Shown: one piece after another, positions 35,881 to 55,101 of the stretch
How positions within the stretch are numbered: the stretch's first letter is position 1
How the letters are laid out: the number at the start of each line of letters is the position of its first letter
Assembly (NCBI GenBank): GCA_021797825.1
Contig: JAJZZA010000015.1
Location: 1 to 55,821 of the forward strand
Length of the DNA: 55,821 nt
Direction of reading: 5' to 3'
Origin: Bacillota bacterium
GTDB taxonomy: Bacteria > Bacillota > Sulfobacillia > Sulfobacillales > Sulfobacillaceae
The notes under the pieces: generated by a model
Seen by the model: only the letters and a program-made list of their open reading frames with translations
The model's database searches: none
What the model was told of the DNA's origin: nothing
Translations under genes and position numbers: made by a program

Positions 35881-36076
35881 TGCACTCAGTTTGTGAAGGA
35901 AATCCTGGCGCCGGGGGCTTTATGGCGCATTTTGGTAAGGGTATGGGTGTGCGCCGGCACCCCGCGCATCGGAACCGTTGTTGCGCCGGCAGCAGGAATT
36001 TCCCGGGTGGGAGGAGAAGAATACCGTGCGCGCCACGCCTGGCGCTTATGGCTTGTTATGTGGAAGGAGGCTGGGG

Positions 36077-37495
36077 ATGGCCCCGCGGACATTGTTCGAA
36101 AAAATTTGGGACGACCACGTTGTGGTGCAGCCAGCGGATTCGCCGGCCCTGCTTTATATCGACCTGCAATTGGTGCACGAGGTGACCTCGCCGCAGGCGT
36201 TTGAGGGATTGCGCTTGAATGGTCGGAGCGTACGCCGCCCCGATCGCACGTTTGCGGTTATGGACCACAACGTCCCGACCAGCAATCGGCAGCAGCCGGT
36301 TCGCGATGCGATATCGCGTCGCCAAATGGAATTGCTGGAGGCCAATTGCGATGCGTTCGATATCCGCCTGTTTGATTTGCATCACCCGATGCAGGGAATT
36401 GTCCATATCATAGGGCCCGAACAGGGTCTGACCCAACCCGGCATGACCATCGTGTGCGGCGACAGCCACACCTCGACCCATGGCGCGTTTGGTGCTTTGG
36501 CTTTCGGCATCGGCACCAGCGAGGTGGAGCACGTGTTAGCCACCCAATGCCTGGTCCAGGCGAGGCCGCGCACCTTGGAGGTGCGGTTCACCGGCCGCCG
36601 TCCGTTCGGGGTGACTCCGAAGGACATGATATTGGCGCTTATCGGTCAAATCGGCACGGCGGGGGCGACGGGCTACGTTATCGAATACACCGGTGAAGCC
36701 GTGCGGGAATTGAGCATGGAAGAGCGGATGACGCTCTGCAACATGAGCATTGAAGCCGGTGCCCGGGCGGGCATGATTTCACCGGACGCGACGACCGTGC
36801 AATATTTGCGGGGAAGGCCAGCCGTTCCCGCGGGGATCGCGTTTGAAGAGAAGAGCCGGGAGTGGCTGGCATTGGCAACCGACGCCGGTGCGAGGTTTGA
36901 TCGGATGGTGGAAGTTGAGCTTAACGGACTGGCGCCCATGGTCACGTGGGGCACCTCGCCCGGCATGGTGACGCGTGTTGACGCTCGGGTGCCGAGCCCG
37001 GCAACCGCCCAGGACCCGGCCGAAGCGGAATCCATGCGGCTGGCGCTCCAATACATGGGGCTGGAACCCGGGACCGCGATGACCGATGTGGCGATCGATC
37101 GCGTCTTTATTGGTTCGTGTACCAATGGGCGGCTGGAAGACTTGGAAAGGGCGGCGCGTGTCGTGGCTGGCCGCCGCGTCGCTCCCAGCGTACGCGCCAT
37201 GGTCGTCCCGGGGTCTGGCCTAGTCAAGCGGCAAGCCGAAGCGATGGGCCTCGACCGGATATTCCGCGAGGCGGGCTTCGAATGGCGCGAGCCGGGTTGC
37301 TCCATGTGTCTGGGAATGAACGAAGATACCCTCAATCCCGGGGAGCGTTGCGCCTCGACATCCAACCGCAATTTCGAGGGACGGCAGGGACGGGGCGGGC
37401 GCACCCACCTGGTGAGCCCGGAAATGGCGGCATCGGCCGCCATTTTCGGCCATTTCGTGGATGTGCGGGACGTGCTCCAGGAGGTGGCCCGCTGA
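36077..37495 (+). CDS. leuC: 3-isopropylmalate dehydratase large subunit (LeuC/aconitase family)
   Basis: Protein of 472 residues. It has KIWDDHVV at the N-terminus, [14 protein letters not shown], the first Fe-S cysteine in IGSCTNGR (about 350), and the other two in CSMCLGMN (about 410). The end reads [19 protein letters not shown], as in LeuC. It isomerises 2- to 3-isopropylmalate with LeuD in leucine biosynthesis. ATG at 36077 follows GGAAGGAGG; longer forms are unlikely. The stop overlaps the leuD start (TGATG). No other leu gene is in the window. Confidence 0.92.
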
Positions 37496-38082
37496 TGGAG
37501 CCGTTGACGCGTCATCACGGTTTGGCCGTTCCGCTGGGACGGGCCAATATTGATACCGACCAGATTATTCCGAAGCAATTTCTCAAACGAATCGAACGCA
37601 CGGGGTTTGGCCAATTTCTTTTTTATGATTGGCGTTATTTGCCCGATGGCTCCCCAAATGGGGAGTTCATCCTGAATCAACCGGCCTACCAGGGCAGCAG
37701 CATTTTGTTGGCGGGGCCGAATTTCGGGTGCGGCTCTTCCCGCGAACATGCCCCCTGGGCATTGCTGGATTATGGTTTTCGCGTGATTATCGCGTCATCG
37801 TTCGCCGATATCTTTTACCACAACTGCTTTAAGAACGGGATGTTGCCCTTGGTTCTGGCGGAGCCGTTGGTCGAAACCTGGCGGGCGGCGGCTTATGAGC
37901 GGGCCTTGTGGCTGACGGTCGATTTAGAGCGCCAGACGGTCACGGACGATGTCGGCGTTCAGCATGCATTTACGATAGATCCGTTTTTACGGACCACTCT
38001 CTTGCAGGGTCTCGACGATATCGAACGGACGCTAAAGTGGGCCGCTGCGATTGACCAGTACGAGGTGCAGCGACGCAAGTAG
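37495..38082 (+). CDS. leuD: 3-isopropylmalate dehydratase small subunit
   Basis: Swivel-domain subunit of 195 residues. It has [17 protein letters not shown], the FLFYDWRY segment and [17 protein letters not shown], the classical LeuD signature. The end is [14 protein letters not shown] normal length for LeuD. The ATG overlaps the leuC stop and is preceded by CCAGGAGGTGG. It forms the heterodimer with LeuC. Confidence 0.93.
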
Positions 38083-38591
38083 CCGAGCCGGCGACTGGGT
38101 CCAGGGGCCGGACCCCGGCCCGGCTGCGGCAGAGTGCGGACAGCTCCCGCGGGGGCTTAACCCGCGCCAAGGGGTTGTCGCCACCCGGCGATTGTCGGCT
38201 CTGTGCCACCGCGACCAGAGCGTCCCGGGGCCAACGGATGGGGCGCGCATCTGAAGTCTGGCATGTGGGCTGGACAGAGAACGGCGCCCGTTCGCAAAGT
38301 GCAACAAATGTCCGCCAGCGGAGGCACCTAAACCCGCGAAGGGCGCCTAGCGGGCTCAGGTCCCGCAAATATGACCAATGAAAGCGAGGTGTTCCCCTGT
38401 TGCGCGGGCGGACGCAACCTCGTCAACGGCGGGCGGAGAGGTCCCGCCGGGCCAGGCGCGCATACACGCGTCGCCGCCGGGTTGACGCTACGACCGACCC
38501 GGCGCGGCTGGCCCGGGGGGGGTGACGGCGCCCACTCAGACTGCGAATTCGGCAGATGGGGAGCGGGTTGGCGAGGTTGTCAGCAGCAGGC
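38083..38591. other. Intergenic region after leuD
   Basis: About 500 GC-rich bases. No gene is recognised. A G8 run stands at 38515-38522. No clean terminator T-run is seen behind leuD. Confidence 0.3.
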
Positions 38592-39044
38592 ATGCGGATG
38601 TTTTCGGTAGATCGGTCACAAATTGGACGGCGCAGTGCGCCGTGCGAGACGGAAATCGAGAAGGGGGCGCTGCGGCGTTTTGCGGAAGCGCTGGGGGTGG
38701 ACAACCCCCTCTATTACGACCTGCGGGCGGCGCAAGCGGCCGGATTTCGCAATATTCCGGCGCCGCCCACATTTGGCGTGACGCTTCCCCAAAACCCGGT
38801 GCCCGGGCTGGTGCTGCCGGAGGCGGGACTGATTCACGGGGAGCAGGAGTTTTGCTACGGAGAACCGATGGTGGCAGGCGATACGATTGGCGTAAGCGCC
38901 TGGCTGGAAGAGGCCAAAAGTCGGCGCGGCGCCCGGGGCAACATGACGATTCTTACCATTATGCGGGAGGCCACCAATCAGTATGGCCAAATCGCCTTTA
39001 CTGCCCGCTCCGTGCTGGTGGTAATGGAGGAGTTGACGCCGTGA
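38592..39044 (+). CDS. MaoC-like/FAS1-type dehydratase subunit (HtdA/X-like)
   Basis: Hotdog-fold protein of about 150 residues. SQIGRRSAPCETEIEKGALRRF then ALGVDNPLYYD and IPAPPTFGVTL match the FAS1-like dehydratase domain (PF13452 type). In it, the catalytic D-x4-H is changed to D-x4-Y (DNPLYY), as in the non-catalytic partner of heterodimeric 3-hydroxyacyl dehydratases. A start at 38592 or two codons later are both possible; a longer start is unlikely. Its stop overlaps the next gene (GTGA). Confidence 0.75.
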   Translation: MRMFSVDRSQIGRRSAPCETEIEKGALRRFAEALGVDNPLYYDLRAAQAAGFRNIPAPPTFGVTLPQNPVPGLVLPEAGLIHGEQEFCYGEPMVAGDTIGVSAWLEEAKSRRGARGNMTILTIMREATNQYGQIAFTARSVLVVMEELTP

Positions 39045-39493
39045 CCGGGGAACTGCGAATGTGGAAGCAGGGTGACACGCTCGGACCCTGGACGGAGGTT
39101 GTGACGCGTCGCCACTTGGTGCAGTATGCTGGCGCGTCAGGTGATTTTAATCCGATTCACTATGATGAGGAGGCGGCCAAGAGTTTTGGACTGCCGGGCG
39201 TGATCACGCACGGCATGTTTAACATGGGACTGCTGGCCCGATACTTGGAGGCTGCGGCCCCCCCTGGGGGTCGTCTCGTAAGCTTTCGGGCTCGGTTTCG
39301 GTCGATGGTGCAGCCTGGGCAGACGCTGGAGATTACCGCCCGCGTCATCGCGGTGAGCAGGGACGCCGAGCAGGAGCGGGCCGTGGTCGATGTCAGCCTG
39401 ACCGTCAAAGGGCAACCCAAAGCCGCCGTGGCCGGACAGGCGGTTATGATGTGGAGGGACAGCTGGGGTGACCCCGGCGGCCCCTCCTCATGA
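39041..39493 (+). CDS. MaoC-family 3-hydroxyacyl-CoA dehydratase subunit
   Basis: Hotdog-fold enzyme of 150 residues with the hydratase-2 motif SGDFNPIHYDEEAA (catalytic D-x4-H) and VITHGMFNMGLLARYL. It hydrates or dehydrates (R)-3-hydroxyacyl thioesters. The GTG start at 39041 follows GGAGG; an ATG six codons in is an alternative. Overlap with the non-catalytic partner upstream suggests a heterodimer as in HtdAB/HtdXY systems. Confidence 0.83.
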   Translation: MTGELRMWKQGDTLGPWTEVVTRRHLVQYAGASGDFNPIHYDEEAAKSFGLPGVITHGMFNMGLLARYLEAAAPPGGRLVSFRARFRSMVQPGQTLEITARVIAVSRDAEQERAVVDVSLTVKGQPKAAVAGQAVMMWRDSWGDPGGPSS

Positions 39494-39818
39494 GTTTCGC
39501 CACCGAAACCGGCCGGACGGGTTTGATGGCTGCCGTCCTGAAGGTCGTGCCCGCCGTCTCCCCGCCGGCCTATGCGGCGTCGACCTGCCCGACGTCGGCG
39601 CTACCGGGGATTGGCCGTTCGTTGCGGGTGGTTCGCCGACGAGTTTCGATGAATGGCGCGAATTGGTCGGGTCAGGTTTCCGGGAATGGTGTATGGTAAA
39701 GGGTGACGGGGATGGATTCCGTAACACCGGGGGCGCATGTTCCGCAGGTCTTGGGGGCGGTCGTGTCCGCCCGAAACGGTCGGCCCAACCGGTGAACGGC
39801 AGTTAAGGAGGATGGGGT
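39494..39818. other. Intergenic region before malate synthase
   Basis: About 325 bases. A frame starting with MSFATETGRTGLM is open for about 70 codons directly after the MaoC gene but has no recognised family. It ends with AAGGAGG, the ribosome site of malate synthase. Confidence 0.3.
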
Positions 39819-41414
39819 TTGCCACACGTTGAACAGGTAACCATTCAAGGACCCATGAATGCGCAGTATGATGGCGTCCTGACCACGGAGGCCGTGGAGT
39901 TTCTCGCCGCGCTCCATCGTCAGTTTGATACGGCGCGGCGGGGATTGTTGGCGCGTCGGCAGGAAGTGCAGGTGCGGATAGACGCCGGATGGCTGCCATC
40001 CTTTCCCGAAGAGACGCGAACCGTGCGTGAAGCGCAATGGCATGTGGCTGCACCCCCCCGCGATTTGCAAGATCGCCGAGTCGAAATAACGGGACCGGTG
40101 GACCGCAAGATGGTGATAAACGCGCTGAATTCAGGCGCGAAAGTATTCATGGCGGATTTTGAAGATGCCAACGCCCCGACTTGGGACAACGTCATGCAAG
40201 GCCAAATCAATGTCAGCGAGGCGATTGAACGCCGGCTGGCGTTTGTCGGGCCGAACGGCAAAACGTACCGGCTGAATCGCGAGGTGGCCACTCTCATCGT
40301 CCGGCCCCGCGGCTGGCATTTGGACGAAAAACACATTCTGGTCGACGGCCTTCCCCTGTCTGCCAGCCTGATGGACTTTGGCCTGTTTTTGTTTCGCAAC
40401 GCGCGATCATTAATCGGCCGGGGCAGCGGCCCGTATTTTTATCTTCCCAAACTCGAAGGGTATCTCGAGGCCCGTTTGTGGGCCGACGTGTTCGCTTTCT
40501 CGGAACAGGTCTTGGGCCTGGCCCACGGGACAATTAAGGCCACGGTCTTGATTGAGACGATTTTGGCTTCCCTGGAGATGGATGAAATTTTGTACGAGTT
40601 GCGTGACTATGCGGTCGGGCTAAATGCCGGCCGTTGGGATTATATTTTTAGCGCCATCAAAAAATTTCGCAATCACCCCGAGATGACCTTACCCGACCGC
40701 AGCCAAATCACCATGACTGTGCCCTTCATGCGGGCGTACACCGAACTCTTGGTAAAGACGTGTCATCGGCGAGGCGCCCATGCCATGGGCGGCATGGCGG
40801 CATTCATCCCCAGCCGTCATGATCCGGAGGTGAATTCGGTGGCGCTGGCACGTGTGCAAGAAGACAAGGAACGGGAAGCGGCGGACGGGTGCGACGGCAC
40901 CTGGGTGGCCCACCCGGACCTGGTGCCGGTGGCGATGGCGGTCTTTGATGCCCACCTGGGCTCCCGGCCTAACCAGTTGGACAAGAAGCGGGTGGAGGTT
41001 GAGGTCCGTGCCGACGAGTTGCTGAACCTGGCCGTGCCCAACGGCACCATCACGGCCGCGGGGCTGCGCAACAACGTCCGTGTGGCTATTCAGTACCTTG
41101 AATCCTGGTTGCGGGGGAATGGCGCGGTAGCCATTTTCAATTTGATGGAGGATGCCGCTACCGCCGAAATTGCACGCGCGCAGATCTGGCAGTGGGTGCA
41201 CAACCGGGCGCGGCTGGACAACGGGGAGCCAGTGACCCAGGACTTGGTGCGACGGATTGAACGCGAGGAACTGCTGGCGATCCGACAGGAAGTGGGGGAT
41301 TCGCCTTTTGAGTCGGGGCGTTACCGGGAAGCCGCCGAGCTGTTTGAAGCCGTATCGTTGGCCGATGAGTTCCCGGAGTTTCTCACTTTGCCGGCCTACC
41401 AAATGCTACCCTAG
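39819..41414 (+). CDS. aceB: Malate synthase A
   Basis: Protein of 531 residues, the normal length for malate synthase [16 protein letters not shown] and [11 protein letters not shown] carry catalytic acid and Arg. Other landmarks are [47 protein letters not shown], and [11 protein letters not shown]. It condenses glyoxylate and acetyl-CoA to malate. The start is TTG at 39819: AAGGAGG is 7 bases ahead, while the nearby ATG at 39812 runs into a stop after six codons. Isocitrate lyase is not in the window, so glyoxylate may come from another route. Confidence 0.93.
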
Positions 41415-41495
41415 CTGGGCACCGGCGGGAGTGGCGGACGGCTGCCGGCGGATGATGCGGCCCGCCACAATTCAACCTGGAGGGGGCGTTGCGGC

Positions 41496-41765
41496 ATGCT
41501 TTACATCGCGTGGCTGACCATAGTGGATGCCGCGTTAAATCAACAGAGTCGACCACAGCATCTGCAATATTTGGACGGGTTGTTCCGGGCCGGTCAGGTG
41601 GCGATGGCCGGACCATTTCCCGATGGTACGGGCGGCCTGGTGATTTACCAAAATGTTGACGAAGCAGGGGCCAGGAACCTGGCCGAAAACGATCCGGCGG
41701 TCACTTCCGGGGCGCGCACGGTGACCGTGCGTGCCTGGAATCCGTTGCAGTTCCCCCTCTCGTAG
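41496..41765 (+). CDS. YciI-family protein
   Basis: Protein of 89 residues with YIAWLTIVDAALNQQSRPQHLQYLDGL, AGPFPDG-TGGLVIYQ, and NDPAVTSGARTVTVRAWNPL. The HL-YL-L, GPF-D-GG and NDP signatures are those of the YCII domain (ferredoxin-like fold, small possible hydrolase/dehalogenase-related proteins). Ribosome site CTGGAGGGGG. The role is unknown; the neighbours are glyoxylate/glycerate enzymes. Confidence 0.75.
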   Translation: MLYIAWLTIVDAALNQQSRPQHLQYLDGLFRAGQVAMAGPFPDGTGGLVIYQNVDEAGARNLAENDPAVTSGARTVTVRAWNPLQFPLS

Positions 41766-42375
41766 CGGGATCCGGTGTCCCGCCGGGATGCCGGGCGTTC
41801 TCGGCGCGGAGAGACAGACCGATTGCGGGGATGGGAGAGAGCCGGTGGGGCAAACGGCCTCGCGTGTTTGGGTAAGGTGGGCGGTCGGGCAGTCGGAAGC
41901 ATCCGCTCGCCCAGGCTTGCCGAACCGCCACCGGCCCAGGCGCGGTGTCAATGGAGCGTGATGGCGGGAAGGTGATGGATGTGGGCGAGTCATTCCGGCT
42001 CGTGGGGTCAACGAACCGGTGCGGATTCCTGCGGATCACGGGTGTTTTGCCGCAGCGCGCGGCGAGGATGCTGCAGGAGGCTTGGAGAGGCGACTCATGG
42101 CCGCACCTCCCTGCCGAACCTCGCTGGCTGGCGGGCCACACGGAGGTCTGGGGTGTCAGCCAAGGGATGTTTCGGCGCCCCGCCTGCGTGATGGCCGCCG
42201 CGATCTGCCAGCTTGCGCAGACCGTACCGCTGGCCGATCCGGACGGGCGGGGGCGCCGCCTGGTTTCCGCTTTGCCGCCTGATTGCGGGATAACGCGCGA
42301 ACAGCCCGGGCGCCCGGTCGGGCAGTCCGCGCGGCCTGGCGCGGGTGTGTCTGGCAGGCGCTTCCCGAGGCGATC
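41766..42375. other. Intergenic region before glycerate kinase
   Basis: About 610 GC-rich bases. A plus-strand frame from ATG 41975 (GGGAAGGTG upstream) is open into the glycerate kinase gene and reads VTGVLPQRAARMLQEAW-like sequence. No family is recognised and it ends out of frame inside the next gene, so I do not call it. Confidence 0.25.
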
Positions 42376-43563
42376 ATGCGCGTAACCATTGCACCCGATT
42401 CCTTTAAGGGGTCGCTTTCGGCCACGGACGTCGCGGAGGCGATGGCGGCGGGCATGCAAGGTGTCTGGCCACAATGCGAATTTATGTTGTGCCCGATGGC
42501 TGATGGCGGCGAGGGTACAGCGGAGGTTCTGCTGACGCGGGGCGGAACTCGTGTCGTGACGGCATCAGTCGATATATTTGGACGGCCATCCCCAGCCTTT
42601 TGGGTCCGTTATGGGCGCACGGCTTTGGTGGAAGCGGCGGTCGGATCCGGGTACCAACCGGTTGAGCGGCGGATTGCCGATGGCGTGGCCACTACCAGTC
42701 TCGGCACCGGTCTACTGATTGCCGCCGCCCTGCGCGATCCGGATGTGGACGAGGTCTTTGTGGCCCTTGGTGGTACCGGCTCGACCGACGGGGGGATGGG
42801 TCTCTTGAGTGCGTTGGGCGCCGAGTTTTGGGATGCCCAAGGAACCCCGTTGCCGCCCTATGGCACATCTTTGCCGCTGGTGCGGTCGGTGCAGATTCAA
42901 CCGGCAGGAAAACCGTTGGTCGGTCTCTACGATGTGGACTCAAAGCTGGTCGGGCGCAATGGGGCAGTGCGCATGTTTGGGCCCCAGAAGGGGGTTCCAG
43001 CCACGATGCTGAGTCCGCTTGACGCCGCCATGCGGCGGTTTGCTGAATGCGTAAGGCACCATGGACGTGAGAATTGGGCCGCGCGCGCGGGCGCCGGGGC
43101 GGCGGGCGGCATGGGGTTTGGGATTCTGGCCGCCGGTGGCCGATTGCGACCGGGAGCGCCGCAGGTGGCGGAGTGGGTGGGGTTGGACCGAGCGATTGGC
43201 CAAAGTGATTGGGTGATTACCGGGGAGGGAAAAATTGATGCCCAAACCGCGCGCGGCAAAGTGGTCGGTCTGGTTGCCGAACGCGCTGCCGCCCGGAACG
43301 TGCCGGTGGCCGCCTTGGTTGGTGGTCGGGGTGCCGGCGCCGACCTTCTCTATAAGGCGGGATTAAGCGTGATTTATCCCATCCTGCCCGGACCGGTGAC
43401 GCTGACCGAGGCGTTACGCGAGGCGCGCCAATACATTACGGACGGGGCCATGCACTTGGCGTGGGCGATTGAGCGGTGTTGGCGTCCGCGGACGGGTCCG
43501 CTGTTCCCGGAAGATGAAGAAGATACCGAGCGCACGGGCCTGACGGGCTTACACGACAATTAG
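42376..43563 (+). CDS. Glycerate kinase (GarK/GlxK type I)
   Basis: Protein of 395 residues. It starts IAPDSFKGSLSATDVAEAMA, the GarK/GlxK signature, followed by PMADGGEGTAE, VEAAVGSGY, GGTGSTDGGMG and GEGKIDAQTARGKVV. It phosphorylates D-glycerate to 2- or 3-phosphoglycerate. ATG at 42376 is the family start (the upstream frame is not conserved). With the hydroxypyruvate reductase-like gene at 44.5 kb it forms the end of a glycerate pathway. The C-terminal 25 residues are acidic and extra. Confidence 0.9.
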   Translation: MRVTIAPDSFKGSLSATDVAEAMAAGMQGVWPQCEFMLCPMADGGEGTAEVLLTRGGTRVVTASVDIFGRPSPAFWVRYGRTALVEAAVGSGYQPVERRIADGVATTSLGTGLLIAAALRDPDVDEVFVALGGTGSTDGGMGLLSALGAEFWDAQGTPLPPYGTSLPLVRSVQIQPAGKPLVGLYDVDSKLVGRNGAVRMFGPQKGVPATMLSPLDAAMRRFAECVRHHGRENWAARAGAGAAGGMGFGILAAGGRLRPGAPQVAEWVGLDRAIGQSDWVITGEGKIDAQTARGKVVGLVAERAAARNVPVAALVGGRGAGADLLYKAGLSVIYPILPGPVTLTEALREARQYITDGAMHLAWAIERCWRPRTGPLFPEDEEDTERTGLTGLHDN

Positions 43564-43580
43564 AAAGGGTGGGTTAATTC

Positions 43581-44459
43581 ATGCAACTGGCATCGGTCAA
43601 GAGCGCACTCGGCGAGGAGTTGGCGATGGTTCTAAAGGACGGGGTGGTGCCGGTTTCACGCATTAGGCGCCGCAAGCAGGAGTCCGGGGATCCGCTGACG
43701 ATGGACGGGCTTTTTTCGGATTCATCGGCGGTGCTGTCATCCTTGCGTGCGCTTCATGCCTGGGCGGACGCTCAAACCTGGGCTGCGGAAAGGGTAGCCA
43801 CCGCCGATTTGCTGGCCCCGGTCAGCCACCCTGGCAAAATCCTCTGCGTCGGGCTCAATTATCGAACGCACATCGAAGAGAGCGGGATGACCCTACCGTC
43901 GTTTCCGGTGCTGTTCAGCAAATTTGGCAATAGCGTGCGGGGACCCGGAGAGCCGGTTGCAATACCGGCGGTGGCGCAGCAGGTTGACTATGAAGCGGAG
44001 CTGGTCATGGTCATGGGCAAGGTCTGCGCGAATGTTGCGGAGGCGGATGCGCTCGATTACGTGTTGGGATACACCTGCGGAAATGACCTGTCGGCGCGCG
44101 ATTTGCAATTTCGCACCGGCCAGTGGCTGCTAGGCAAATCGTTGGAGGGCTTTGCCCCGATGGGCCCGTATCTGACCTTGGCGGAGGACATGAGTCCGGA
44201 CAATGCGGGCATCCAGTGCTGGGTCAATGGGGAGTTGCGTCAACATGACACCACCGCGAACCTGATATTTTCCTGCGCAACCTTGGTGAGTTACATCTCC
44301 CGGTATATGACGCTGGTGCCCGGCGACGTCATTTTCACCGGAACACCGCACGGCACCATGATGGGTTGGCCCGCAGACCGGCAGGCTTGGTTGCGGCCGG
44401 GTGACGAGGTGGTCGTAGAGATTGAGGGGATTGGACGGCTGGTCACGCCGTTGATTTAA
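43581..44459 (+). CDS. Fumarylacetoacetate hydrolase (FAH)-family enzyme
   Basis: Protein of 292 residues. CVGLNYRTHIEESG starts the catalytic domain; metal ligands are in DYEAELVMVMG (E-x-E) and GNDLSARDLQ (Asp); then KSLEGFAPMGPYL and IFTGTPHGTMMGW. This is the layout of acylpyruvases, 2-keto-3-deoxyrhamnonate-type hydrolases and 2-hydroxyhepta-2,4-diene-1,7-dioate isomerases. Substrate unclear. It is 17 bases after glycerate kinase, with GAAAGGGTGGG upstream. Confidence 0.87.
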   Translation: MQLASVKSALGEELAMVLKDGVVPVSRIRRRKQESGDPLTMDGLFSDSSAVLSSLRALHAWADAQTWAAERVATADLLAPVSHPGKILCVGLNYRTHIEESGMTLPSFPVLFSKFGNSVRGPGEPVAIPAVAQQVDYEAELVMVMGKVCANVAEADALDYVLGYTCGNDLSARDLQFRTGQWLLGKSLEGFAPMGPYLTLAEDMSPDNAGIQCWVNGELRQHDTTANLIFSCATLVSYISRYMTLVPGDVIFTGTPHGTMMGWPADRQAWLRPGDEVVVEIEGIGRLVTPLI

Positions 44460-45846: not shown

Positions 45847-46492
45847 ATGGATAATCGGGATCTGGAACGAAAATTGGTGCGTATTCACGAAGCGGCGCAA
45901 TTTTTGGGGGTCACCCCGACGACCTGGCGTCGCTGGAAACGAGAGGGGCGGCTCGTACCGGATGCCCGGACTCGCGGCGGCGATCGGCGCTATGATCTGA
46001 ATCGCGTGGGATCCGCACCGCACAGTTCGGACCATCCCGATCGCAAACCCATCGCCTACGCCCGTGTATCGAGCCACGACCAGAACGCCGATCTGGAGCG
46101 GCAAAAGCAAGTGCGGGAGCGCTATTGTGCCCGTCAAGGGGGGGACCTTTGAGAGCGTGGCCGACCTCGGGTCGGGCATGAACTACCACAAGAAGGGCCT
46201 GAAACGGCTCCTTAATGACATCCTTGCCGACTGGGTCGGTCGGCTGGTGGTTACCCATAAAGACCGTCTGCTACGTTTTGGGGCGGACCTGGGGTTCGCC
46301 ATTTGCGAGGCCAAACAGGTGGAAGTGGTGATTCTCAATCACAGCGCGGACACCACGTTTGAAGAGGGATTAGGCCAAGACGTGTTGGAAATCATCACGG
46401 TCTTTTCGGCCCGACTCTACGGGCGTCGATCCCGAAAAACCCAACAATTGCTGGAGGGCGTAAAACACGCGGTCGAGGAGGCGTCGGCATGA
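45847..46492 (+). pseudogene. tnpA: IS607 TnpA serine transposase, frameshifted at a G7 run
   Basis: The N-terminal MerR-like HTH reads RIHEAAQFLGVTPTTWRRWKREGRLVPDA...RRYDLN. The serine-recombinase domain follows with the nucleophile in IAYARVSSHDQ. At 46137-46144 the frame meets seven G after CAA and reads RQGGDL-stop. With six G it would read QGGTFESVADLGSGMN and continue to LLEGVKHAVEEASA, ending at 46492. One G insertion, or slippage on the run, explains this. The TGA overlaps the tnpB ATG (ATGA). Confidence 0.75.
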
Positions 46493-47662
46493 TCGTCGCC
46501 CACAAGATTGCCCTGGACCCGAACAACATCCAGGAGACGTCCTTTCGCCAAGCGGCGGGAGTGGCGCGCTTGGCCTACAAGTGGGCCTTGGACCAATGGC
46601 AGCAGCAGTATACCGCGTGGAAAGACGACCCGACGTTGCCGAAGCCGTCCGCGGCGGCCCTGCGACGCCAACTCAATTCCCTCAAGCGCGACGCCTTTCC
46701 CTGGATGCTGGAGGTCACCAAAAACGCCCCCCAGATGGCGATCATCCCCTTGGGCCGAGCGTTTCAGAATGTCTTCGGGGGCACCGGGAAATATCCCACC
46801 TTTAAGCAGAAGGGCCGCCACGACAGCTTTTCGCTCACGACTGATCAATTTACCGTCAAAGGCCGCAAGGGGCAGATTCCGAAGTTGGGCTGGGGGCGGA
46901 TGCACGAACCGCGGCGGTTTGCCGGAAAAGTGCTGGGCGGCACGATCTCCCGGACCGCCAACCGCTGGTTCCTCAGTGTCACCGTCGAGATTCCGGATCC
47001 GCCTGTCGTCCGCCGCGAAAACCAAACGGTGGGCGGGGGGGATCTGGGGCTCTCGGCGTTGGCGACGCTCTCCGCTGGCGAGAAGATGGGGGGACCGAAA
47101 GCCTATGCCGCCGCCCAAAAACAACTGCGTCGATTGCCGCAACACTTCAGCCGCCAAAGTCCGCGCCGGATTCGTCCCCGGCCAGCCCATCCCGCCAGGG
47201 ATGCGCAGGCCCTGGTCGCAGAATATGCAGAAAACGCAGCGGCGCTTGGTCCGGCTGCATGCCCGGATTGCGCATATCCGGGCGGATGCGCTGCACCACC
47301 TGACCACCGATCTTGTGCAGCGCTTCGATGTCATCGCCATTGAGGAGCTGACCGTGGCGGGGATGCTCAACAATCATCATTTAGCCCGGGCCATCGCGGA
47401 CATGGGATTTGGGGAGTTTCGCCGTCAACTCAAATACAAGGCGGCCCTGCGGAACAAGACCGTCATCGTGGTGAACCGCTGGTATCCCAGCAGCAAAACG
47501 TGTGCGTCGTGTGGATACAAAGTGTCGAAAATGCCGCTCGCTGTGCGCGAGTGGACGTGTCCCGCATGTGGGACGCAGCATGACCGCGATGTGAACGCGG
47601 CGATCAATTTGCGACACGTGGCCGAGAGTTGGGTTGGAGGCTTCCAACCCGTTCCGGCGTAA
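46489..47662 (+). pseudogene. tnpB: TnpB RNA-guided nuclease, frameshifted by a 14-nt deletion
   Basis: The N-terminal part is intact through GKVLGGTISRTANRWFLS and the first RuvC Asp (GGGDLGLSALATLS, about 185). After HFSRQ (about 47155) the frame moves. The rest, VRAGFVPG...IAIEELTVAGMLNNHHLARAI (catalytic Glu), the zinc ribbon CASCGYK...WTCPACGTQ, and HDRDVNAAINL (last Asp), is read in another frame to 47662. Compared with the 1.4-kb copy it lacks AGATGGCAGCCGCC between two GCCGCC direct repeats. All catalytic residues survive apart from the frame break. Confidence 0.8.
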
Positions 47663-48584: not shown

Positions 48585-49766
48585 ATGCGCGGAGGGCTTC
48601 GCGAATTCATGGGATTTCCCCGGGCGGACGGCCGGGTGGGTGTCCGCAACCACGTTTTGATTCTTCCTGTGAGCCCCGCTGCCAACCGTGCGGCGCTTAT
48701 CGCCCAGCAGGCGGTTCCCGCCGCCGCTGTCGTGCAGGTGGCGCAGGAAATCGGCCCCGACGTCGCGGGATGGGAGTTGGCGGTGCGTGTCATAGCGGGG
48801 TGGGTCGATCACCCCAATGTGTACGCGGCGGTGCTGGTGGCGGTAGAGCGCGACGACCCGGTGGTGAGGAGGGTGATGGCCGATATGCGCGGCGAGGTGC
48901 GCTGCCAAACCGTCACCTTGGCGGAAGCCGGGGGTACCCGAGCCGCCGCGGAAATGATTCAAGTGGCCGTCGCGCGATGGCAACGGGCTGCGGCGCAGGA
49001 AACGCGGCTGCCGGTTCCGCTGTCGCAACTGCTGTTGGGGACCGAATGCGGCGGCTCGGATGCGTGTTCCGGGTTGTCGGCCAATCCCAGTTTGGGTTGG
49101 GCCAGCGACCATTTGATAGCGGCCGGCGGCACCTCCATTCTGGCGGAGACCACCGAGCTCATCGGTGCGGAAATGTTGTTGGCAACTCGCGCCCGGTCAC
49201 AGGCGGTAGCGGATCGCTTGCTGGACACCGTGCGCAGCGCGGAGCACGCGGCGATGCGGATGGGGGCGGACTTTCGCGGGGCACAGCCGGCGCCGGGCAA
49301 CATGGCCGGGGGGCTTAGCACCATCGAGGAGAAATCCTTGGGCTGCATTCACAAAGGCGGCCGGAGTTCTTTAAGCGCGGTTGTGGAGTACGCCCAGCGG
49401 CCGCCGGCGTCGGGATTGGTGGTGATGGATACGCCGGGTCACGACGTGATGCAGTTGGTGGGAATGGTTGCGGGCGGTGCCCAGGTGGTGGTCTTTACCA
49501 CCGGCCGCGGTACGCCCACCGGGTCGGCCATTGCTCCGGTTATCAAGGTATCGACGAGAACCGAATTATTTCGCAGCCTGGGCCGCCATATTGACTTGGA
49601 TGCCGGTCCAGTGATTGACGGATATCTTACGGTGGACCAGGTTGGTGAGCAGTTGTTGCGAAAAATCGTCGCGGTCGCGAACGGGGAACGGGTGGCGGCC
49701 GAACGTCTGGGTCACCGCGAATTTGGCATTTTCCAAGGGTGGACGGACGCGGGGGGTGTTGACTGA
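48585..49766 (+). CDS. Altronate/galactarate dehydratase-type large subunit (UxaA/GarD family)
   Basis: Protein of 393 residues. It opens FMGFPRADGRVGVRN, typical of UxaA/GarD/SuyB large subunits. The conserved cysteines are in LGTECGGSDACSGLSANP (about 146-163) and EKSLGCIHKGG (about 247-257). Further motifs are GGTSILAETTE and VFTTGRGTPTGSAIAPVIKVSTRTE, then DAGPVIDG. It would dehydrate a sugar acid at an iron site, or eliminate sulfite if SuyB-like. The small SAF domain it needs is in the next gene. The stop overlaps the next ATG. Confidence 0.87.
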   Translation: MRGGLREFMGFPRADGRVGVRNHVLILPVSPAANRAALIAQQAVPAAAVVQVAQEIGPDVAGWELAVRVIAGWVDHPNVYAAVLVAVERDDPVVRRVMADMRGEVRCQTVTLAEAGGTRAAAEMIQVAVARWQRAAAQETRLPVPLSQLLLGTECGGSDACSGLSANPSLGWASDHLIAAGGTSILAETTELIGAEMLLATRARSQAVADRLLDTVRSAEHAAMRMGADFRGAQPAPGNMAGGLSTIEEKSLGCIHKGGRSSLSAVVEYAQRPPASGLVVMDTPGHDVMQLVGMVAGGAQVVVFTTGRGTPTGSAIAPVIKVSTRTELFRSLGRHIDLDAGPVIDGYLTVDQVGEQLLRKIVAVANGERVAAERLGHREFGIFQGWTDAGGVD

Positions 49767-50959
49767 TGGACCCGATTGCCATCTTGCGTTGGGTCGAGCG
49801 GGGACGTAGCCGCTTAGGGCTTAGGGATTCTCGGGGGGCCGTGCTGCCCGTCGATGCGGTGTTGGCGGACGTCGCGAGCGTGCCCGCGTTGGCTGAGCAT
49901 TGTCAGCGTCTTGACGTCGCACTGAGCGCTTGGTGCCAACGCGCGGTGAACGCATGCCCGGTCCGGATTGATGCCCCCGAGACCGTAATGCCGCCGGTGG
50001 ATCTGTGCGAGTTGTGGACGCTAGAAGGCTCGCGCTCTCCGGTAACGGAAAACCGGGAAGCGGATGGGGACCGCGCGGGAGGACCACGCCCCGCTCGGAA
50101 CGACGACAGCCCGGTTCTTGGCTTTAAGGCGCCGGGCGGGCGGATTGCCGGGCCGGGCGACGCTGTCGGCCTGCGTCAGGACGCCATATGGCATGTACCC
50201 GCCGCCACGCTCACGATAGTGCTGGACCAACGCGGGCAAGCGGTCGGGTTTACGCTCGGGGATGACGTGACGGCTTGGGATCTGATGGAGCGAAACCCGC
50301 TGCATCAGGCACAAGCCAAACTCTTTCACCACAGCGCGGCGATCGGCCCGTCTCTGCTGCTCGCCGATACCGTCGATCCGTATTCCTCGCGGATCGCGCT
50401 GACTATCGAGCGGCGCGGTGACCTGGTATTTCAGGGAACGGGTTCAACCGCCCGGTTTCTCCCCGGGATAAGTCGCCTGGTCGATGGGTTGCGGGCAGCT
50501 TGGCCGTTGTCGCCTTGGACCGGAGTCATGGTTCCCGCGGATATTCCTCTCCCCGCCTGGGTTGCGCTGGAGGATGGCGACGTGGTGACGGTGGCGATGC
50601 CGGAGATCGGGTTCCTGCGCAATCCTGTGCGGCGCATCGGAGCGGACTGGGTTGACGTGCCGCCATCGGGGATGCGGGTTTTGCGCATTGACCCCACGGA
50701 CACGGTAGCGGTAGCCCTCGGCGCCCTACACCCCGGACAGACGGTATCGGCCGGGGATCGAGATCTGGCTATTCAGGACACGGTGCCTTTTGGGCATAAA
50801 GTGGCGTTAGTTCCCATGCGGGAGGGCGAGTGGGTCATAAAATACGGGCAGCGAATTGGGCGGACAACCTGCAGCATTCGACCGGGACAGCATGTGCATG
50901 TCCATAATCTTGAGAGTTGTCGCGGGCGAGGAGACTGGGATAAGGCGGATGGCCCATAA
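49766..50959 (+). CDS. Fusion: FAH-family (AraD1/2-keto-3-deoxy acid type) domain + UxaA SAF domain
   Basis: Protein of 397 residues with two parts. Residues about 110-300 form an FAH-like domain: GFKAPGGRIAGPGDAVGLRQD, a VGFTLGDDVTAWDLMERNPLHQAQAKLFHHSAAIGP-type core with its Asp, and VALEDGDVVTVAMPEIGFLRNPV. These match the AraD1 branch acting on 2-keto-3-deoxy sugar acids. Residues about 315-395 form the SAF domain of altronate dehydratase small subunits: VAVALGALHPGQTV, PFGHKVALVPMREGEWVIKYGQRIG, HVHVHNLES. Both ends overlap neighbouring genes (TGATG and TAATGG). I know of no such fusion. Confidence 0.83.
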   Translation: MDPIAILRWVERGRSRLGLRDSRGAVLPVDAVLADVASVPALAEHCQRLDVALSAWCQRAVNACPVRIDAPETVMPPVDLCELWTLEGSRSPVTENREADGDRAGGPRPARNDDSPVLGFKAPGGRIAGPGDAVGLRQDAIWHVPAATLTIVLDQRGQAVGFTLGDDVTAWDLMERNPLHQAQAKLFHHSAAIGPSLLLADTVDPYSSRIALTIERRGDLVFQGTGSTARFLPGISRLVDGLRAAWPLSPWTGVMVPADIPLPAWVALEDGDVVTVAMPEIGFLRNPVRRIGADWVDVPPSGMRVLRIDPTDTVAVALGALHPGQTVSAGDRDLAIQDTVPFGHKVALVPMREGEWVIKYGQRIGRTTCSIRPGQHVHVHNLESCRGRGDWDKADGP

Positions 50960-51855
50960 TGGAGACGCTCTTTAGGGGATTTCGCCGAGCAAACGGGTTG
51001 GTTGGCAGCCGGGATTACCGATTGGCGCTGCCCTCGGTGGTGTGCGCCAACTGGGCGGCCGTGAAGGCTGCCGAATTGAGTCCGGGGGCGATTGCCGTGG
51101 AACATCCTCTGGGTTGTGCGCAGATTGGCAGTGATTACGAGCAGACGTTACGGGTACTCTGCGGGATTGCCGTCCATCCCAATGTCAACACGGCGGTGGT
51201 CATCGGTCTGGGCTGCGAGGGAGTGCCGGCCCGCCGCATCCAGCAGGCGGCCGCCGAACGCGGAAGAATCGTGGCCTGTCAGCTGATTCAGGAGCAGGGG
51301 GGAGCCGAACCGGCCGCCAGTTTGGCGGCGACGGCTTTAAACGCGGCCTGCAAGAGCACGCGCGAGCCGTTTGGGTTGGCCGACCTTGTGCTGGGAGTTG
51401 GCGACATTGCGCGCCTGGGCCCCATGGGCCGCGCCGTGCTAGTCGAGTTTTCCGCGCGGGGGGGACGGGTGCTGCAGGCTGGCGAGGACCCGGGCGGAAG
51501 CGCCCGCATGCCGTATGGCGAGCCCTTGCCCTCATGGCGGACGCGCGGATGGATGCGGGCCGGAGCCGGCGATAGCGAGACCGTCAACGGATTGGTGGCC
51601 TCGGGAGCGCAAATTGTTTTAGCCCAGGCCGACGCGCGGCACTTGGGCGGCCATCCCATTTGCCCCGTGGTTCGCATTGGCTATGATGAGCGTCTCCGGG
51701 CGGCGCTGTCCGACGACTGCGACGGCTACCTGGCCGAGCGGACCGTGGCGGGATGGGTGGATTATGTCGTCGCGGCGGCCAGCGGCAGCCCGGTGGTTTC
51801 GGAAGTCACGGGTTCTGCTCTCTTTGCCATCGCACGGACCGGTCCAACCCTATAG
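50959..51855 (+). CDS. Second UxaA-like large subunit, degenerate paralogue
   Basis: Protein of 298 residues, about 95 shorter than its paralogue at 48.6 kb. It keeps FRGFRRANGLVGSRDY and VVIGLGCEGVPARRI in the N-terminal half, and the domain around ARHLGGHPICPVVRIGYDE near the C-terminus. The TECGGSDACSG motif is replaced by VLGVGDIARLG, with no cysteine, and the KSLGCIHKGG segment is missing. It is probably non-catalytic and structural, pairing with the active subunit. The start overlaps the fusion gene stop. A normal stop TAG at 51853-51855 argues for a real gene rather than decay. Confidence 0.75.
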   Translation: METLFRGFRRANGLVGSRDYRLALPSVVCANWAAVKAAELSPGAIAVEHPLGCAQIGSDYEQTLRVLCGIAVHPNVNTAVVIGLGCEGVPARRIQQAAAERGRIVACQLIQEQGGAEPAASLAATALNAACKSTREPFGLADLVLGVGDIARLGPMGRAVLVEFSARGGRVLQAGEDPGGSARMPYGEPLPSWRTRGWMRAGAGDSETVNGLVASGAQIVLAQADARHLGGHPICPVVRIGYDERLRAALSDDCDGYLAERTVAGWVDYVVAAASGSPVVSEVTGSALFAIARTGPTL

Positions 51856-51878: not shown

Positions 51879-52451
51879 TTATCCGCACAGGGATGCCGTT
51901 ACCACATGAACTTCTCCCGCCGCCTGGCCTCCACGAGGCCGAGGCGGGGGGTTCTGGATTCGTTGGCAAAACTTCCTGGTTCGTTGACCGCTGCGTGAGA
52001 AGCCGCGGGCCTCCCACGTCTTGTGCGATCTCCCCGGGCGTAACTGCGGACCGTTCCGGCCCTTCCGAAAAATCCGCGTGGTTTTGTGAGATGTCGTGAG
52101 CGGATCGCCGGAAAGAAGCTTTGTGATTCCTCGTTTCGCGATAACGACCGCGGCATTATGGTCCGCATTGTCCGTGTGTCCGCAGCGTTGACAGACAAAC
52201 TCGGCTTGACTGAGCCGGTTGTCCGGGGAAGTGACTGTGCAGACGGCGCATTCCTGCGAACTATAGGAGAACGGGACCGAGAGCACCAGTTTTCCTCGGC
52301 GGAGCGCTTTATAGGTGGTAAACGAGACGACTGATCCCCAAGCCGACGATAAGATAGCCCGGTTCAGCCCGGCTTTGGCTGGCGCTTGGTTGGGAAGAAA
52401 CCGCCCGTTGGCGTCCTGCGTGGCCTTCGCGTGTTGCCATGTTTGTAAGCG
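51879..52451 (-). pseudogene. tnpB: TnpB C-terminal relic (IS605/IS1341 type) with right-end sequence
   Basis: On the minus strand, from 52451 the frame reads LQTWQHAKATQDANGRF, LNRAILSSAWG, YKALRRGKLVL, then the ribbon YSSQECAVC...FVCQRCGHTDNADHNAAVVIAKRGI. This is the last third of a TnpB of a subfamily different from the 1.4- and 47-kb copies (EC-x2-C ribbon, D-HNAA Asp). A stop at 52454-52452 and loss of homology mark its broken 5' side. Beyond the ribbon the frame drifts into right-end sequence with GAACCAGGAAG. Confidence 0.7.
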
Positions 52452-52909: not shown

Positions 52910-54124
52910 ATGGACATGGATAGGGCGTTGGGCCACTTTGGTCAGTATCTTCAGGAACACGAGTATCGGTCGGCCTCCATCAGTCAGTACATGCGGATTG
53001 CCGACCTGTTCCAGAGTTGGGTAGCAGGGCAAAGAGGAGAAGTGGCCAAATCGCTGCCCGAATTAGTCGCCGCCTATCTTGATTCCTCAGCGGCCATTGA
53101 TGGCCGCCCGAGAAGCTTTCACATGGTGCGTGCGGCACTCCATCGTTACATGGAATGGATGGCTCTAAAGCCGCCGGATGTTGCACCGCCCTCAGCCCCG
53201 GATGCTATCGCGCTGGAAGTGCAGGGGTATCTGCAGTACCTGCGCGATGTGGCCGGGCTCGCACTCGCCACGTGCCTGAGGCACCGGACCGTGGTCGAAC
53301 AGTTTCTTCGTACGGTGGCGACACCCCAGATTATCCCGCACAGCGAGTGGTTGACGGTATCCAAGGTCGAGCAATTTATTATCACTCAGTGGGCCCACCT
53401 TCAGCCCATTTCGAAAAAGGGGTCGATCGGCGTGATTCGCGGGTATGCCCGCTACCTCCGCTTTCGTGGTGTCGCCTTCGATCTCGGCATTCTCCGGCTG
53501 CCCTTGGCGGCGCCCGTCTGGAAACTCGCGTCCGTCCCCCAGACGTTGACGCAGGCGGACATCGACCGGTTATTGGAGTCTTACCTTACAGACACCGCGA
53601 CCGGGTGCCGGGATTGGGCCATCGCGGTATGCTTTGTCGACTTGGGTCTGCGGGCTTCCGAAGTCGCCAATCTGGCCCTCGACGACTTTGAATGGCGAGC
53701 CGGTCGCATCCGAATCCGCGCTTCCAAAACCCGGCAAGAGCGCGTGCTGCCCCTCCCGCAGCGGGTTGGCGACGCCGTGGCGCGCTATCTCACCGGGGCG
53801 CGGCCGTCCACCCCGGAACGCACCCTCTTCGTGCGATTTGCCCACCAGGCTGGGCAGCCCATGGGACGTGAACAAATCCGGGGGACCATTCGCCGCGCGT
53901 ACGCGCGGGCGGGATTTTCCTCGCACCTAACGGGCACCCATGTCTTGCGCCATACCAAGGCGGCAGCCCTGTACCACCAAGGATCCGACTTAAAAGTCAT
54001 CGCCGACATTCTGGGCCACACGTCCATTGACACGACGGTGATCTATACCAAGGTTGCCGGACCGGCCCTGGCACCGGTCCAAAGCCCCTGGCCTGGGGCG
54101 CGACCCGAGGGGGGTGCCCAATGA
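52910..54124 (+). CDS. Tyrosine recombinase 1 of a RIT element
   Basis: Protein of 404 residues. An N-terminal SAM-like core-binding domain is followed by the catalytic domain: Arg in GLRASEVANL (about 246), Lys in SKTRQERVLP, His-x-x-Arg in HVLRHTKAA, His in LGHTSIDTT and nucleophile Tyr in VIYTKVAG. Two ATGs (52910, 52916) are possible. Three different recombinases overlap head to tail, the arrangement of recombinase-in-trio elements. Its stop overlaps the second gene (ATGA). Confidence 0.87.
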   Translation: MDMDRALGHFGQYLQEHEYRSASISQYMRIADLFQSWVAGQRGEVAKSLPELVAAYLDSSAAIDGRPRSFHMVRAALHRYMEWMALKPPDVAPPSAPDAIALEVQGYLQYLRDVAGLALATCLRHRTVVEQFLRTVATPQIIPHSEWLTVSKVEQFIITQWAHLQPISKKGSIGVIRGYARYLRFRGVAFDLGILRLPLAAPVWKLASVPQTLTQADIDRLLESYLTDTATGCRDWAIAVCFVDLGLRASEVANLALDDFEWRAGRIRIRASKTRQERVLPLPQRVGDAVARYLTGARPSTPERTLFVRFAHQAGQPMGREQIRGTIRRAYARAGFSSHLTGTHVLRHTKAAALYHQGSDLKVIADILGHTSIDTTVIYTKVAGPALAPVQSPWPGARPEGGAQ

Positions 54125-55101
54125 CGCCCGACACTGAGAGTAGCCACCGCATCACCCGCCAAGTGGAAGCCTACATCGCGTTCAAGCGCGGCTTAGGCTT
54201 TCAATTGGCCGTCGAGGCCGATGAACTCCGGCGATTCGCGGCCTTTGCGCGACGCCAACATCATGAGGGCCCTCTGACGGCGGCTTTGGCCTTAGCGTGG
54301 GCTCAGGAACGCCCGCACTATACTCGCTGGTACCAAGCGAGACGGCTTGAAGTAGCTCATCGCTTTGCCGTCTACGCTCAAATCCAAGATGTTGAGACCG
54401 AAGTACCACCCCGTGGCACCTTTGGATCTTGCCACGGGCGGACCACCCCCTACCTCTTTACCTTGGCCGAAGTCCAGCAGGTCATGCAAGCGGCACAGGC
54501 ACTGCCATCACCGGATGGCCTGCGTGCGCAGGCCTTGTCCACCGCCATCGGCCTCCTCTGGGCGACGGGTCTCCGGCCCAGTGAACTCTGTAGCTTAATG
54601 CGCGAGGATGTTAACAAAATGCCGGGTATTCTTCATGTCCGTAAAACCAAGTTCACGAAAGAACGGGCATTGCCCCTGGACGCCACGGTCGTCGCGGCCC
54701 TGCAACAGTACGCGGCATTTCGGGATGTGCAGTGCCGGAACCCCAAGACCCGGCACTTTTTTCTCTCCACGGGTGGCATACCGCTGACCCTTCGCCATCT
54801 CGAATATGGCTTTACGGTCATCCGTAGGATCTTACTACCGCCAGGGGAATCGACCTGGCCAGGTCGGGCTCCCCGCCTGTACGACCTCCGCCATTCCTTT
54901 GCCTGTGCCACGATTCAGCGGTGGTATACCGAGGGGATTGACGTCAATCATCATTTGCTCTTGCTCTCAACCTATTTGGGACATGTCAAGCCGAGTGACA
55001 CCTATTGGTACCTCACCGGCACCCCAGAACTGTTGGCCCTGGCGACCGAACGATTCCAACAGTGGGCTGCGAATGCGGCCCGAAAAGGAGGCGACCACTA
55101 A
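54121..55101 (+). CDS. Tyrosine recombinase 2 of a RIT element
   Basis: Protein of 326 residues. Catalytic residues: Arg in TGLRPSELCSL, Lys in KTKFTKERALP, Arg in YDLRHSFAC (the usual leading His of HxxR is Tyr), His in YLGHVKPSDTYWYL, and Tyr in the same segment. This matches the RitB-like partner, which often has such an altered box. Its stop and the third start share TAATG. The N-terminal domain reads VEAYIAFKRGLGFQL. Confidence 0.85.
   Translation: MTPDTESSHRITRQVEAYIAFKRGLGFQLAVEADELRRFAAFARRQHHEGPLTAALALAWAQERPHYTRWYQARRLEVAHRFAVYAQIQDVETEVPPRGTFGSCHGRTTPYLFTLAEVQQVMQAAQALPSPDGLRAQALSTAIGLLWATGLRPSELCSLMREDVNKMPGILHVRKTKFTKERALPLDATVVAALQQYAAFRDVQCRNPKTRHFFLSTGGIPLTLRHLEYGFTVIRRILLPPGESTWPGRAPRLYDLRHSFACATIQRWYTEGIDVNHHLLLLSTYLGHVKPSDTYWYLTGTPELLALATERFQQWAANAARKGGDH

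Follow-up and report, generated by a model that had tools for sequence, protein, structure and literature searches.

The window, i.e. the whole 55,821-nucleotide stretch of contig JAJZZA010000015.1 from a Bacillota bacterium, contains a gene in which a FAH-family domain is joined to a SAF domain, with a UxaA-type large-subunit gene on either side (L1 upstream and L2 downstream). A UxaA-type D-arabinonate dehydratase and a FAH-type D-KDP dehydratase are consecutive enzymes (PMC6336799), and the preliminary description proposed that a single complex dehydrates a sugar acid and hands the keto-deoxy product directly to the FAH active site. Genes of these same two consecutive families lie next to each other in Paraburkholderia mimosarum, where they are separate, with no fusion described in PMC6336799. 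The locus raises the question of what the three proteins build together, and whether the FAH part of the fusion still takes the second step.

The FAH-SAF fusion and its distribution

The fusion gene (49766..50959, + strand) is a single uninterrupted reading frame of 397 amino acids, and it is set between its two neighbours by overlapping codons as originally described, with a 1-base overlap on each side (TGATG at 49766 and TAATG at 50959). Pfam detected FAA_hydrolase at residues 160-289 (2e-8), i.e. the domain search did find FAH similarity in the N-terminal part, and SAF at residues 312-383 (4.1e-9). The predicted structure (mean pLDDT 88.9, with very low confidence at residues ~91-105) agreed with this: residues 4-293 matched KdaD (Z about 30), and residues 302-383 matched 3k3s, an altronate-hydrolase SAF fragment (Z 14.3). 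The protein is divided here into a KdaD-type FAH domain (residues 1-293; 49766..50644, + strand) and a SAF domain (residues 302-385; 50669..50920, + strand). The earlier assignment of the first domain as AraD1-like was correct as to FAH, but AraD1 was rejected: the fold is KdaD-like, and the score against the NCBIfam GguC model was 15.6 bits, compared with a cut-off of 340.

Among the 154 genomes of the class that were searched, 17 besides the window genome, all from the same family or order, contain full-length fusion homologues (about 31-48% identity), which rules out an oddity of one genome. The order L1-fusion-L2 was nearly always kept, although some copies are located at the ends of contigs. 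The fusion is a genuine one that related bacteria have conserved. No fusion was found outside this family or order in 398 sampled genomes of the phylum or in other collections. A pattern-limited contig scan with P0001 gave no relative among the matches listed, the FAH, SAF and large-subunit genes were all separate at the 80 loci listed by a scan with the fusion alignment, and no plasmid record covered 80% of the fusion query. We found no description of a FAH-SAF fusion or of a split UxaA large subunit in the open-access literature.

All of the fusions lie on one side of a supported branch of the FAH tree, with one standalone copy (SA_L080) nested among them that has probably lost its SAF domain secondarily. 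One genome (G498) carries two complete L1-fusion-L2 operons (L065 and L068). In another (G514) a frameshift or an assembly error splits L1 into two frames that overlap (L066:7167-8337). A 407-residue frame ending in SAF in a third (G519, L092:14736-15959) had no alignable FAH part and was set aside; it adjoins a complete large subunit, and its N-terminal part may reflect a wrong start.

Reciprocal losses in the two large subunits

L1 (48585..49766, + strand) has an intact C-terminal catalytic domain (GD_AH_C, 1.7e-94) and a degenerate second domain from which cysteines have been lost (GD_AH_second, 3.2e-15). L2 (50959..51855, + strand) has an intact second domain (GD_AH_second, 4.1e-24) and has kept the C-terminal tail, with the catalytic block of the C domain missing and the Pfam match to GD_AH_C weak and partial; its model matched GarD (6u7l) with a Z of 24.9 over 268 residues. 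All three Pfam domains, i.e. GD_AH_second, GD_AH_C and SAF, are thus present across L1, L2 and the fusion.

Four cysteines are conserved in the UxaA/GarD superfamily and have been proposed as iron ligands (PMC6336799); we mapped them to C132, C166, C199 and C264 of E. coli UxaA by spacing and motif rather than by that paper's own sequence. The first three correspond to Cys29 (51043..51045), Cys53 (51115..51117) and Cys86 (51214..51216) of L2, and the fourth to Cys155 of L1, within the motif CGGSD (49047..49049), which is the sole iron-ligand cysteine left in L1 (all + strand). This division, three on L2 and one on L1 with no chain carrying all four, was found without exception among 34 L2 and 33 L1 sequences (one of the latter being cut at its start). 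The same pattern extended beyond the cysteines. Taking as a reference the 83 positions that are invariant in seven complete large subunits, 43 of the 57 in the C domain survive in L1 only and 0 in L2 only, while 13 of the 25 in the second domain survive in L2 only and 2 in L1 only; a single invariant tail glycine survives in L2 only, 15 positions are kept by both chains and 9 by neither.

Reciprocal loss of this kind is what would be expected if two chains build one active site. The preliminary description of two UxaA-type large subunits holds as to type, but the residue pattern indicates that they are neither equivalent nor complete: L1 and L2 appear to be complementary pseudo-halves. We consider it reasonably probable that L1, L2 and the fusion form one heteromeric UxaA/GarD-type, iron-dependent sugar-acid dehydratase with an active site shared by L1 and L2 and with the FAH domain serving as a scaffold for SAF. 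The second domain, and with it three iron-ligand cysteines, would come from L2; the C-terminal catalytic domain, including the remaining cysteine and the rest of the conserved residues, would come from L1; and the SAF domain that accompanies UxaA enzymes would be borne on the end of the KdaD-type FAH domain. In such a complex the four cysteines would be expected to meet in one site. The substrate, judging from the relatives, would most likely be a pentonate such as D-arabinonate.

The known members of the superfamily (COG2721, including E. coli UxaA, GarD (6u7l) and the D-arabinonate dehydratase C785_RS13685) share their domain types, motifs and SAF with the window proteins, and the L2 model shares the GarD fold; however, they have a single complete large chain with all four cysteines, whereas here the cysteines are divided over two chains and SAF sits on a third protein. 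In SuyAB the SAF part and the large part are separate proteins, so that SuyAB and the heteromeric L-fuconate dehydratase resemble the window in having SAF apart from the large protein; we are not aware that either has a FAH fusion or another large subunit complementing the first.

Both of these enzymes are described as heteromeric, and activity without the four cysteines has been reported for enzymes of the SuyAB type (PMC6336799). This counts against a shared iron site and bears on the alternative that survives best, although it is still an improbable one: that L1 and SAF are a complete enzyme, cysteine-independent like SuyAB, with L2 as a separate regulatory or assembly subunit. The report of a sulfolactate sulfo-lyase without the cysteines and the retention of the whole C-domain motif set in L1 would both agree with this. 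However, L1, which lacks three of the cysteines, has kept the fourth in every sequence, and L2 has the three. In addition, the second-domain residues lost by L1 are exactly those that L2 keeps, in two bacterial groups, and L2 co-occurs with L1. The genomes with a full-length L2 are approximately the same set as those with the fusion, which favors the shared-site reading.

One genome (G509) counts against the reading of L1, L2 and the fusion as a single complex, as the only fusion found in it (L063:7877-9079) is on a different contig from L1 and L2 (L200:5784-8112). In this genome the neighboring L1 and L2 genes are ~245 bases apart, with no fusion in the gap. The window genome itself contains a second pair of SAF and large-subunit genes (L081:5112-6555; G000:C101), whose large subunit lacks the equivalents of C132, C166 and C199, keeps that of C264, and may be of a sulfo-lyase-like or other cysteine-poor type.

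If the complementary reading is right, stages in the origin of this arrangement would still be visible. In several Bacillales, FAH, SAF and a single large subunit are encoded by separate genes next to each other, the large subunits being complete where aligned. A full-length L2 is present in 15 Alicyclobacillales genomes, one of them that of Alicyclobacillus macrosporangiidus, in the unfused arrangement L1-SAF-L2, followed in six of the 15 by KGSA dehydrogenase-like and KdaD-like genes; the L1 of this order has lost its cysteines, yet shows fewer other losses than that of the window's family, in which the deeper losses and the fusion are found together. The split of the large subunit is therefore independent of the fusion, and probably predates it.

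Catalytic residues of the FAH domain

The Mg2+ of Sulfolobus KdaD is bound by E143, E145 and residue 164, while E114 acts as base and K182 as acid (PMC9795676); residue 164 is printed as Glu in that review, but is Asp in the sequence. Alignment of the window FAH domain to KdaD showed that the general base is replaced by V117 (50114..50116, + strand) and two of the three metal ligands by A146 and T148 (50201..50209, + strand), i.e. E114V, E143A and E145T, leaving only D167 and K185 of the catalytic set. The domain is thus of KdaD type by fold, which it shares with 2q18 and 3bqb, but not by its catalytic residues, and it differs from those proteins also in being joined to SAF. On this alignment the window FAH domain is unlikely to carry out metal-dependent dehydration. 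The Mg ligands and the E114/K182 dyad of KdaD are intact in 12 of the 19 fusions, and the catalytic residues are kept in all of the standalone FAH relatives aligned; both E143 and E145 are also gone in six other fusions.

dN/dS was 0.10 and 0.23 in two pairs of relatives whose FAH domains have decayed, and the decayed domain is therefore still selected for something. We infer a structural role, in which the window FAH domain, having lost catalysis, would probably be retained as a scaffold that positions SAF. The same purifying selection, together with the retention of K185 and D167, could indicate instead that the domain has shifted to another, metal-independent activity or has become a product-binding sensor. 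We regard this as quite improbable, as the replacement residues differ from one decayed copy to another, unlike what a single shared new site would give.

A further alternative, that the window fusion is itself bifunctional, with an active FAH site that receives the dehydratase product within one complex, is slightly less probable again. The joint conservation of FAH and SAF, the KdaD fold with D167 and K185, and the intact site in 12 relatives favor it, but the window copy lacks the general base and two of the three metal ligands, and with these residues lost two-step channelling is unlikely in this organism. The proposal of dehydration followed by handover is thus unsupported for the window copy. 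It is sensible for the 12 intact fusions, several of which lie near KGSA dehydrogenase-like genes; sequence makes channelling plausible in these relatives, and in many relatives the fusion is probably bifunctional. In many relatives, and probably in the ancestor, the FAH domain would be the next enzyme, converting 2-keto-3-deoxypentonate to alpha-ketoglutaric semialdehyde, and a complex with an intact FAH domain could carry out two consecutive steps.

The FAH tree grouped all of the decayed copies together, but these are among its longest branches. The L1 tree rejected a single clade of decayed fusions (p-AU 0.001), which counts against a single origin; FAH decay therefore arose at least twice. 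Separate origins for the window copy and the L074-L078 group could not be distinguished (p-AU 0.22). Inspection of the homologue table gave no clear pattern relating FAH decay to whether a genome also has a separate KdaD gene. Finally, it is very improbable that the window operon is just a relic in decay next to mobile elements: there are transposase- and recombinase-like frames on both sides and the FAH residues are lost, but the L1, fusion and L2 frames are all open, the window L1 is 59-68% identical to its relatives, L1, L2 and SAF retain their conserved residues, and FAH losses of like kind occur in six relatives.

Pathway context and significance

KGSA dehydrogenase-like genes (best model NF042993, below cut-off) lie near the operons at L064, L065, L066 and L073, and fit a pentonate route to alpha-ketoglutarate. 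No other KdaD was found in the window genome, which is 97.5% complete, and its aldehyde dehydrogenases reach at most 42-45% identity to the KGSA dehydrogenase-like genes of the relatives, which are 65-71% identical to one another; both observations would fit the loss of a step. The window genome also gave no close match to the SDR found in the operons of the relatives, and this counts against the shared-site dehydratase outlined above.

If the window FAH domain is inactive, the keto-deoxy product must go elsewhere. Near the operon are a separate FAH-family hydrolase (43581..44459, + strand; Pfam 2.8e-68) that has kept the metal-ligand motif EAEL, a glycerate kinase, a malate synthase and a 2-hydroxyacid dehydrogenase. 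The best NCBIfam model for the hydrolase is 2,4-didehydro-3-deoxy-L-rhamnonate hydrolase, below cut-off, and it could possibly take a later step of the pathway. Route III is cleavage to pyruvate and glycolate (PMC6336799), and these neighbors would suit it. Aconitase-family, MaoC-like, malate synthase, glycerate kinase and FAH-hydrolase genes follow one another on one strand at 35978-44459, which suggests glyoxylate or glycerate metabolism. Judged from their translations, transposase-like frames and an integrase-like pair of frames flank the operon (45847-47662, 51879-52286 and 52910-55101).

The complementary large subunits are a stronger result than the fusion itself. Routine annotation would label L1, L2 and the fusion as three ordinary enzymes, although their conserved residues suggest that L1 and L2 each depend on the other. 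We give about even chances to the full account, in which a metal center and active site are built from two complementary paralogues, each probably inactive alone, and SAF sits on a FAH protein that at first joined it as the enzyme for the following pathway step and has since become a structural pseudoenzyme at least twice. The window FAH domain would be a case of a catalytic domain retained after its chemistry was lost. If the complementary reading is true, L1 and L2 would be a natural obligate heteromer produced by complementary loss in two duplicates, and their split makes the construction of the UxaA/GarD iron site testable.
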